This document shows, in pieces, positions 23,950 through 26,279 of a stretch of DNA of 64,000 nt. The stretch is taken from the NCBI RefSeq assembly GCF_902459645.1, contig NZ_CABPSK010000005.1, positions 124,001-188,000 of the forward strand, in the 5' to 3' direction. Origin of the DNA: Pandoraea pneumonica. Lineage in GTDB: Bacteria > Pseudomonadota > Gammaproteobacteria > Burkholderiales > Burkholderiaceae. Positions within the stretch are counted from its first letter, which is position 1. Each line of letters opens with the position of its first letter. A model generated the notes under the pieces. It was not told the origin of the DNA. It did no database searches and worked only from the letters and a program-made list of their open reading frames with translations. Position numbers and translations under genes: made by a program.

Positions 23950-24318
23950 ATGCCAAATTTAGAGAATAAAATCGCGATTATTCGGGATGTGAGATTGAAG
24001 GGGCTCGCGCAACTCAGGGAGAACGCCTCATCGCCAGAAAAGGATCGAACGGGCAGTGCCTCGAACATGGTCGCATCCGCACTAAGGCTGTTGGCGGTCT
24101 CCGAATACCATTTGAACCATGATGTTTCGAACGTTTTATCGATTGACCCTACCCCGGAAAACTTGAGCTGTGGGGTTTCGGAAAAGAGTATTTTTACCTT
24201 CGTCAAAATGGGGTCGGAAATGACCCTCTTGGCAAGCAGATGGGGCGTTAATGGGAGCTACGACTGCGGAGAATTTAACATCCATGCTGATGTCAGAACT
24301 TCGGCAAGTACTGGATGA
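23950..24318 (+). CDS. Uncertain ORF at the left edge of the A+T-rich island
   Basis: Frame of 122 residues in DNA of clearly lower G+C than its surroundings. The first 75 residues look protein-like (mixed charged and hydrophobic residues, no low-complexity bias); the rest is less convincing and overlaps the next gene by up to 68 bp. No ribosome-binding site and no recognised domain. An opposing minus-strand frame covers the same DNA, and I favour the plus strand only for the better residue mix. It may be a broken gene. Confidence 0.3.
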   Translation: MPNLENKIAIIRDVRLKGLAQLRENASSPEKDRTGSASNMVASALRLLAVSEYHLNHDVSNVLSIDPTPENLSCGVSEKSIFTFVKMGSEMTLLASRWGVNGSYDCGEFNIHADVRTSASTG

Positions 24319-24694
24319 GTATGAGTTGCGAGCCGTTGAGGTAGACGCCCTGGAAGCCCTTTTGGTAGGCGAAAGCTTCGCTTTGCGCTTTGTGGCCGAC
24401 CGAGAGGCGCTCGATGTCTCTTACCTTGAACATGATCGTGGACAACTGCTCGCAGCGTTTATGCTGAGGCCCCTGATTATGGAGAGATTTACTGCAGCGG
24501 ATCGGATGCACTATGGCAACCCGGTGACAGCAGAGGAGCGCCTTGCGGCCTCCGTGAGGGTCTATGCCGCAGGGCTTGCGCATCGATGCGGTGACGTATT
24601 GAGTGGAGACAGATCGTGGATTCGACGAGCTGCCTGGGAAACTTCAAAGCCGGGCACATTTGTTCAGGACGTTCTTCAACGCAATTGCCACTGA
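24251..24694 (+). CDS. Unknown protein in the A+T-rich island
   Basis: Product of up to 147 residues with balanced composition and no signal peptide or membrane segment. In-frame ATGs at 24284 and 24290 are alternative starts, and GGAG at 24268-24271 favours one of them. The sequence (SELRQVLDEYELRAVEVD... FTAADRMHYGNPVTAEERLAASVRVYAAGLAHRC) has no recognised family. Its place next to an orphan toxin domain and an immunity-type gene makes an immunity or orphan-effector role possible, but this rests on position only. Confidence 0.5.
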   Translation: MGATTAENLTSMLMSELRQVLDEYELRAVEVDALEALLVGESFALRFVADREALDVSYLEHDRGQLLAAFMLRPLIMERFTAADRMHYGNPVTAEERLAASVRVYAAGLAHRCGDVLSGDRSWIRRAAWETSKPGTFVQDVLQRNCH

Positions 24695-24936: not shown

Positions 24937-24980
24937 CGCATTCCCCCTTGTAGAGGCGACGTCTCCCCGGGGAATTAGGG

Positions 24981-25331
24981 TTGGTTGAATTGAACCCAAA
25001 CACCATTCGCTTCACTCAGACTACGGTAAAACAGCAGGGCGCGACGATCCCTAGACTTGTTGGTAGCATGCGTGCAAATGGATTTTTGGTTGAGTCGCAG
25101 CGTCTAGTCGACGTGGTTCGAATGCCCGATGGATTACTTGCAACGCTTGATAATGCGCGAGTACTTTCCGCGCAGAGAGTTGGGGTAAATATTCAACCGA
25201 GTGTCTTTAAATGCGCTGATCCATTACCAAATTATTGGCTTTATATTGATCGCTTCATTGGTAGGAAGAGAGCGGTTCCGGTTACCTACGGTGATGCTGT
25301 GAAGAAAAGAATCAGAATTAGGAAGATATAA
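24981..25331 (+). CDS. Orphan polymorphic-toxin C-terminal domain (ParB-like fold), N-terminal delivery part missing
   Basis: Fragment of about 116 residues that resembles the C-terminal tip found on Rhs, CdiA and filamentous-haemagglutinin-like effectors: a VELNPNTIRFTQTTV opening, then VDVVRMPDG, LDNARVLSAQRVG and a closing DAVKKRIR helix. In complete effectors this follows several hundred to thousands of residues of delivery sequence. Here an in-frame stop at 24951-24953 cuts it off, with only TTG starts available. It is therefore either a silent orphan cassette, as in CDI and Rhs loci, or a freestanding intracellular protein. ParB/sulfiredoxin-like folds of this kind are thought to act on nucleic acids or nucleotides. 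The adjacent downstream gene looks like its immunity partner. Confidence 0.65.
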   Translation: MVELNPNTIRFTQTTVKQQGATIPRLVGSMRANGFLVESQRLVDVVRMPDGLLATLDNARVLSAQRVGVNIQPSVFKCADPLPNYWLYIDRFIGRKRAVPVTYGDAVKKRIRIRKI

Positions 25332-25378
25332 TTTAAAAAATTATTTCTATACCGATCATCTTTAGAAGGAAGTGAGTT

Positions 25379-25738
25379 TTGAAGAAGATTGAGTTGCTAA
25401 CGCCTGAGGAATTGCCGTCCTGGTTTTCATACCCGGAGGATTTCCTTCAAGCCATAGACGAGGGATTGTACGACATCGGCCCATGGCAAATTCTGAACGG
25501 AGAGCGGCTTCGCATGAGGCATAACGGACTAAAGTCGCGATATCCTGTTCATGACCTTGTGCCGTTTGCTCGTCGCTTGGATACAGATGATGTAGCTTGC
25601 TGGGATGTAAAGGCCCCGGGGGCGGTACAGATTATTCATGACTTCGCCGGTCCAGGTTGGGAGGTACGGGAAAGCTACCCGTCATTTCTAGGTTGGTTAG
25701 CTGCTGCGAAAGAAGAAGCGAAAGACTACGATGATTAA
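25379..25738 (+). CDS. SUKH (SMI1/KNR4)-like immunity protein
   Basis: Protein of 119 residues starting at TTG 25379, with AGAAGGAAG about 9 nt upstream. The sequence pattern (LPSWFSYPEDFLQAIDEGL, GPWQILNGERL, DLVPFARRLDTDDVACW, SFLGWLAAAKEEA) fits the SUKH superfamily used as immunity proteins against polymorphic toxins. It sits 47 bp after the toxin domain and overlaps the kptA start by 8 bp. Binding to that toxin is inferred from order. A different antitoxin-like role cannot be excluded. Confidence 0.7.
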   Translation: MKKIELLTPEELPSWFSYPEDFLQAIDEGLYDIGPWQILNGERLRMRHNGLKSRYPVHDLVPFARRLDTDDVACWDVKAPGAVQIIHDFAGPGWEVRESYPSFLGWLAAAKEEAKDYDD

Positions 25739-26279
25739 GGCGTTGGATTTCACCGTGCTAAGTAAAGTTGTGACACGGATTTTGCGGCATGAGCCTTGGG
25801 TCTATGAGCTAGAGCTTGACGATGCGGGGTGGGTCCCCGTTGATGAACTATTGGCGGCACTCCGTACCGTGAAAGTGGAGTGGTCTTCGATTGACGAGTC
25901 TGACATTGCTGAGATGATTTCTCGTTCGGAGAAAAAGCGGCATGAGGTGCGAGAAAAGAAGATTCGCGCACTTTATGGACACTCGGTGCCTAAGATGTTA
26001 TCGAGGGAACGAGCTGATCCTCCTGAATTTTTGTATCACGGGACGTCCCCATCTGCGGCCATGCTAATTAAAGGTGATGCATTGCGACCGATGGGTCGGC
26101 AGTACGTGCACCTCTCGGTCGACGTCGATACGGCTAACGAAGTTGGACGCCGAAAGGCACCCAATCCAGTACTTTTGGTCGTGAATGCTGCGAGCGCACA
26201 TGAGGCAGGAGTGGCGTTTTACCGAGGTAATGACCACGTTTGGCTTGCGGACACTATTCCGGCCAAATTCATCGGTTGA
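25731..26279 (+). CDS. kptA: RNA 2'-phosphotransferase (Tpt1/KptA family)
   Basis: Protein of 182 residues with all Tpt1/KptA segments in order: LSKVVTRILRHEP near residue 10, DDAGWVPVDELLAAL, KKIRALYGHSVP near 80, LYHGTSPSAAMLIKGDALRPMGRQYVHLS near 105-130, and a C-terminal DHVWLADTIPAKFI. These supply the Arg, His, Arg and Arg residues of the NAD+ and RNA site. The enzyme removes a 2'-phosphate from RNA, forming ADP-ribose 1'',2''-cyclic phosphate, and related members ADP-ribosylate RNA ends. Its start overlaps the SUKH-like gene by 8 bp (ATG inside the end of the upstream gene), implying translational coupling and possibly RNA repair or modification tied to the toxin cassette. KptA in bacteria often has no known partner. 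Confidence 0.85.
   Translation: MIKALDFTVLSKVVTRILRHEPWVYELELDDAGWVPVDELLAALRTVKVEWSSIDESDIAEMISRSEKKRHEVREKKIRALYGHSVPKMLSRERADPPEFLYHGTSPSAAMLIKGDALRPMGRQYVHLSVDVDTANEVGRRKAPNPVLLVVNAASAHEAGVAFYRGNDHVWLADTIPAKFIG

Follow-up and report, generated by a model that had tools for sequence, protein, structure and literature searches.

A gene for KptA, an RNA 2′-phosphotransferase, overlaps the gene of a putative immunity protein in Pandoraea pneumonica, and the pair follows a sequence resembling the C-terminal tip of a polymorphic toxin. What does a KptA do in such company? The presence of KptA/Tpt1 in bacteria has been described as a conundrum of long standing, the enzyme having no clear substrate of its own in E. 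coli (PMC6333775). We analyzed this locus in a window of 64,000 nucleotides, the whole stretch of DNA under study, together with related loci in other genomes, plasmids, viral contigs, and phage records, and the results suggest that KptA may act here as an antidote, reversing the damage that the toxin does to RNA.

The gene block and its three products

The block consists of the following features:

24981..25331, + strand: orphan toxin tip, 116 aa, 31-44% identical to toxin C-termini (alignment A6)
25379..25738, + strand: SUKH-like immunity gene, 119 aa, TTG start, with relatives 37-50% identical after the same tip
25731..26279, + strand: predicted KptA/Tpt1 RNA 2′-phosphotransferase, 182 aa, ATG start (PF01885, PDB matches, catalytic tetrad and HGT motif)
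25731..25738, + strand: overlap of the SUKH-like gene and kptA, 8 bp including the stop codon, from the ORF coordinates

A gap of 47 bp separates the tip from the SUKH-like gene, and the ATG of kptA falls within the 3′ end of the latter, in agreement with an earlier sequence-only reading of this DNA, which had placed the start of kptA inside the last codons of its neighbor. The G+C content of positions 24981-26279 is 49% compared with ~63% across the window, and none of 97 segments of 1,300 bases taken from the window (mean 63.1% G+C, s.d. 2.9) was as low, which marks the block as apparently foreign. Upstream of the tip, at 23950-24694 (55% G+C), two ORFs encode 122 and 147 aa; they have no convincing family match and perhaps belong to the same island. 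One Rhs-core match and one TPS filamentous haemagglutinin match were found in the genome, both on contigs other than that of the block.

The third product is plainly predicted to be a full-length Tpt1/KptA enzyme that removes 2′-phosphates, and the sequence-only call of an RNA 2′-phosphotransferase holds. Residues 10-174 align to positions 6-176 of the 177 in PF01885 (PTS_2-RNA; E 1.9e-36, with 126 bits where the cut-off is 26), the PDB entries 6ede/6e3a are matched at E about 1e-57, and alignment shows that the catalytic residues R19, H20, R70, and R123 and the HGT motif at 103-105 are all present. Tpt1/KptA enzymes carry an Arg-His-Arg-Arg tetrad, and their well-established activity is the removal of RNA 2′-phosphate with NAD+ (PMC6333775). 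The score of 173 bits against NF002013 misses the NCBIfam equivalog cut-off of 231, and by sequence we assign the protein to a divergent Tpt1/KptA clade. It is the only PF01885 match in the genome of the window.

A toxin had been postulated nearby, and its C-terminal tip is indeed present, but as an orphan without a delivery region; an in-frame stop lies just upstream at 24951-24953 (read by eye). A genome-wide profile search counted one in-frame TAA inside the match of the tip, which may therefore be cut short, and its C-terminus is shorter than those of its relatives and lacks their conserved tail. The toxin C-termini that it resembles belong to Rhs, filamentous-haemagglutinin, and other toxin-like proteins, among them an Rhs protein on a Streptococcus plasmid, a 450-aa protein of another genome in the order of the window (G237), and a Neisseria gonorrhoeae protein in what is presumably a maf locus. 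Among the toxin-like proteins bearing the tip, those of L052 and L093 are Rhs proteins, those of L006 and L054 are annotated as RHS and FHA, respectively, and that of L060, with a weak LXG match (E 0.096), is a possible LXG toxin. Across the eight tips aligned in profile A6, the N-terminal residue is serine in six and threonine in the window and L054, and the arginine of a [NT][RT][RT] motif is found in all eight rows (DNTR in six, DNAR in the window, DHTR in L054). In two proteins, the stretches hit by the A6 profile are also matched by ParBc_2 (E 1e-4, narrowly below the cut-off) and ParB_N (0.032), and the tip protein of G237 has a weak match to RepB (L041, E 0.0012). Sequence searches of the PDB with the tip and immunity proteins found no relative: where anything was returned, it was an unrelated protein at E 0.1 or worse.

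The tip of the window resembles Tox-ParBL1, a family described as a divergent offshoot of the ParB/sulfiredoxin superfamily, which is typified by N. gonorrhoeae NGK_2271 and has SUKH or Imm44 as its immunity protein (PMC3482391); the N. gonorrhoeae tip protein found here was set beside NGK_2271 by family description only. Tox-ParBL1/Imm-SUKH systems are described as having the tip at the C-terminus of delivered proteins, an arginine motif, and an N-terminal Ser/Thr (PMC3482391). The present family shares the C-terminal placement on Rhs, filamentous-haemagglutinin, and other proteins, the conserved arginine, and a SUKH-like gene next door; it differs in that the pair is joined by a further gene, which encodes an enzyme, and in that the copy in the window is an orphan tip. 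The term KptA does not occur in the text of Zhang et al. 2012 (PMC3482391).

The 119-aa immunity protein matched no Pfam or NCBIfam model at E<=1, and we call it SUKH-like through its relatives, of which those at L052 and L053 match PF14567 (SUKH_5) at E about 0.1, under the cut-off, and one is annotated as SMI1/KNR4. The relatives that are 37-50% identical lie directly 3′ of the same tip at L052, L053, L060, and L006, and a further SUKH-like relative follows the tip at L093. At N. gonorrhoeae, a second gene of the SUKH family (L049:11656-12030) lies downstream, past further cassettes of the same kind.

Recurrence of kptA beside two subfamilies of tips

Loci related to that of the window were gathered through the tip or the immunity protein rather than through KptA, which yielded eight distinct loci with this type of tip besides the window. 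At five of these (L052, L053, L057-L059/L060-L062, G581, and G237) kptA is adjacent; in all but the last, the tip, SUKH, and kptA genes are co-directional and the SUKH and kptA genes overlap, while at G237 kptA is convergent to the tip-SUKH pair. The contigs L057-L059 are the same as L060-L062, each one base off the first in 1,291, and the tip protein of G581 is an Rhs protein. With starts chosen by eye, the overlap between the SUKH-like gene and kptA is 8 bp at L052, 8 bp at L060 if the TTG start is used, and 1 bp at L093/L098. The remaining three loci (Streptococcus, N. gonorrhoeae, and B. contaminans) have no adjacent kptA, and no KptA was detected in their records, which cover the whole 2.17 Mb for N. 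gonorrhoeae and the plasmid record only for Streptococcus and B. contaminans. A SUKH or other immunity gene can evidently do without KptA, since several tip loci have no kptA.

All five viral contigs with a tip of this first type (three distinct) carry the triad. In the 399 genomes of the order of the window, apparently Burkholderiales in the wide GTDB sense, the tip occurs in two, those of the window and G237, both with an adjacent kptA, and any KptA occurs in 19 of the 399. The A6 profile matched five of 360 genomes of the class, namely those of the window, G581 with its triad, and G639, G498, and G431; the proteins matched in the last three are remote ParB-like proteins, and no KptA was found in these genomes, which are 89, 67, and 86% complete, respectively. 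The first-type tip was not found in phage records, and a DNA search of E. coli genomes gave no match. The triad thus recurs at unrelated loci, so the tip and KptA are neighbors well beyond the window, and the search for SUKH-KptA neighbors that the sequence-only reading had proposed found the overlapping pair again in unrelated hosts, which makes it more than a chance arrangement.

SUKH relatives without a tip were found at three loci (Proteus, Neisseria elongata, and Pantoea), none of which has a complete adjacent kptA. In Proteus mirabilis the SUKH-family relative (L005:4001-4347) is split across two frames by tblastn, and KptA is absent from the 4.09 Mb record. The N. elongata gene (L008:5899-6330) is an orphan of the same SUKH family as that of the window, and an unlinked KptA (L029:2485-3066, G348) lies on another contig of apparently the same genome. 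The SUKH-like gene of the Pantoea plasmid is adjoined by an ORF of 41 codons on the - strand (L007:4400-4525), next to an ISNCY transposase. This ORF resembles the C-terminal 31 residues of KptA (29% identity over 31 aa; E 0.02, from a search of few sequences), with no Pfam match in the record, and may be what is left of kptA in a cassette of this kind.

A second subfamily of tips was first reached through KptA itself. The two best matches among the 94 phage records with KptA, which were the two examined, are both labelled Listeria and are one base apart over 12.5 kb. Their kptA is preceded by an immunity gene and by a gene whose product has another ParB-like tip at its end. These records (L055/L056), named as Listeria phage, also hold a gene resembling Rhs and two resembling ABC transporters (by eye), and look like pieces of bacterial chromosome rather than phage. 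The four plasmid loci of this subfamily were reached by searching with the tip, which returned five plasmid records, four of them distinct, with kptA adjacent in three of the four: B. ambifaria, Duffyella, and B. multivorans each have the tip, an immunity gene, and a convergent kptA, the KptA of B. multivorans being without its N-terminal part. In Mesorhizobium (two plasmids), kptA is absent from the plasmid record that bears the second-type tip. This tip was found in none of the viral contigs and in none of the 399 genomes of the order, the latter search being itself rated uninformative.

The immunity genes of the second subfamily show no similarity to the SUKH queries by tblastn. We considered SUKH as the true partner of KptA and set this aside; as a second tip subfamily with other immunity genes also has kptA, it is the toxin rather than SUKH that kptA appears to track. 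Profile comparison indicates a weak kinship between the two tip subfamilies (hhalign probability 5%, E 0.0079), and a Sinorhizobium tip (L110) matches both the first (5e-13 to 3.5e-8) and the second (1e-7 to 2e-5), with E-values from a small database with composition correction off; by these matches, we regard it as an intermediate that bridges them. No KptA was found within the 7 kb fetched around this intermediate and a remote Haliovirga relative. The three-gene RNA-conflict unit that had been suggested from the sequence thus gains genomic support from its recurrence, but the key partner of KptA seems to be the ParB-like tip and not SUKH.

Distribution and phylogeny of KptA

Viewed from the side of KptA, most of the examined homologs lie away from such tips. 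Both tip types were searched by tblastn at all 20 of the order's other KptA places, and one of these (G237) is near a tip. Among plasmids, 13 of 71 KptA places were examined, ten from the KptA list (L078-L085, L091, L092) and three reached through tips; three are near a tip, and none was found at the ten from the list. Five of the 13 viral contigs with KptA (three of 11 distinct) are near a tip. Assuming uniform placement, the probability of finding KptA within 5 kb of at least three of seven distinct plasmid tip loci is about 3e-11, which disfavors chance neighbors but is only a rough figure, since accessory genes tend to lie together and the seven exclude two remote plasmid relatives that came to light later.

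A tree of 46 KptAs, which was quickly built and has many open forks, contains one branch (SH-aLRT 99) that splits 18 rows from 28, with linked KptAs on both sides: the 18-row side holds all of the co-directional ones, including Listeria, and the 28-row side all of the convergent ones. This split fits at least two separate pairings of tip and KptA, and losses could also explain it. Three further observations concern individual KptAs. The ORF L030:6704-8107, directly 5′ of kptA, resembles the RNA ligase RtcB by eye, which suggests an RNA-repair setting for that copy; G255 holds three KptA copies (L044, L045, and L046), two of which share upstream genes as if recently copied; and on the Curtobacterium plasmids L078, L080, and L085, HAT replaces the HGT motif of KptA (three of 46 rows).

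Candidate role of KptA and rival explanations

The block in the window is best explained as one copy of a polymorphic-toxin cassette, gained by horizontal transfer and comprising a ParB-like tip, a SUKH-like inhibitor, and KptA. Where the cassette is intact, the tip forms the end of an Rhs, filamentous-haemagglutinin, or similar protein that is presumably delivered into rival bacteria, where the tip would act as a nucleotide-dependent phosphotransferase and put a 2′-phosphate on RNA of the target cell, for example tRNA. SUKH would be a direct inhibitor that blocks the toxin by binding, and KptA would form a second, enzymatic layer of immunity that strips the 2′-phosphate with NAD+ and so restores RNA hit by the toxin. 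We know of no activity reported for any Tox-ParBL1-like tip; our proposal that the toxin leaves a 2′-phosphate and that KptA reverses it builds on the coupling of a gene with predicted KptA activity to an immunity gene whose toxin belongs to a superfamily that includes phosphotransferases. Sulfiredoxin, in the ParB superfamily, is a phosphotransferase, and Zhang et al. 2012 leaned towards a nuclease for Tox-ParBL1 toxins (PMC3482391).

Taken whole, a cassette in which the toxin leaves an RNA 2′-phosphate that KptA erases comes close to an even call and falls slightly short of it. A protective role for KptA is probable: it fits better than an effector role because kptA follows the immunity gene or, at other loci, is convergent. 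That the RNA lesion is a 2′-phosphate we put forward tentatively, and RNA kinase activity of the tip is more doubtful. KptA would be an added layer and not a requirement, since several loci have the immunity gene alone, and in this host, where the tip is an orphan, the block probably protects against neighbors.

Enzymes that confer immunity by undoing the mark of a toxin have precedents in Tri1 for Tre1 and DarG for DarT. The proposed cassette would resemble these in that an enzyme protects by reversing the lesion, and would differ in that the mark is an RNA 2′-phosphate and that a separate, binding-type immunity protein stands alongside. A closer chemical parallel is ArkI, which 2′-phosphorylates U47 of tRNA, a mark that E. 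coli, archaeal, and yeast KptA erase; KptA removes such internal 2′-phosphates from RNA in vitro and in vivo, the latter in E. coli (PMC9095486). Here as well KptA would erase an internal 2′-phosphate placed by a kinase, although ArkI is related to protein kinases, serves heat stability, and has no immunity protein (PMC9095486), while the present toxin is ParB-like. The passages on KptA in PMC9503650, PMC11833690, and PMC10789625 deal with RNA end repair and RNA ADP-ribosylation and do not place the enzyme beside polymorphic toxins, and among the matches listed from open-access main texts we found no description of kptA linked to such a toxin cassette.

The main rival to the antidote is end repair after cleavage, in which the tip would be an RNase leaving 2′,3′-cyclic phosphate or 2′-phosphate ends that KptA cleans before ligation. 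ParB-like domains have been reported to have nuclease activity (PMC5512222; PMC3482391), and KptA has been grouped with 2H enzymes and ligases as partners against RNases, likewise in a setting of biological conflict (PMC9503650). Here, however, kptA comes after the immunity gene of a toxin, and a scan by eye of the ORF lists of five loci, over the first 70 residues, showed no RNA ligase, kinase-phosphatase, or 2H neighbor. Metal-dependent nucleases, moreover, usually leave ends other than a 2′,3′-cyclic phosphate or 2′-phosphate. Tpt1 recognizes an internal 2′-phosphate with an adjoining 3′-phosphate (PMC6333775), which also speaks against this explanation, and we consider it unlikely.

The two other explanations that we weighed are both very improbable. 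KptA could be offensive or capping, ADP-ribosylating 5′-phosphate ends of RNA as an accessory effector or an RNA shield; Tpt1/KptA enzymes can carry out this reaction and KptA-like toxins have been proposed (PMC11833690), but at all 10 linked loci KptA is a separate gene unfused to the toxin, and the tetrad for 2′-phosphate removal is complete in nine of the 10 linked rows, the tenth being without its N-terminus. Alternatively, KptA could be a passenger on mobile islands that unite toxin cassettes and kptA without a shared function, in keeping with its frequent occurrence in accessory or phage settings, with the majority of examined copies lying away from tips, and with a linked label that is just mildly clustered on the KptA tree (nine of 500 shuffles as low). 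A passenger would not be expected to keep the same order and overlapping reading frames in unrelated hosts or to accompany two tip subfamilies with different immunity genes, and the presence of linked KptAs on either side of the deepest supported split, together with the rough chance estimate above, also counts against it.

If KptA is an antidote to these tips, the consequences extend beyond this locus. A cassette that repeatedly includes kptA names a candidate source of RNA 2′-phosphate, and the activity of Tox-ParBL1, so far guessed to be that of a nuclease or a phosphotransferase, gains a concrete and testable chemistry. Immunity of two layers is proposed, in which one protein blocks the toxin and the other repairs the lesion. 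A broader possibility, which we regard as somewhat unlikely, is that Tox-ParBL1 tips are RNA 2′-OH kinases and that bacterial KptA, including unlinked copies, is a general antidote across immunity families; if true, this would constitute a new class of toxin chemistry and would explain the retention of KptA in bacteria without splicing ligases.
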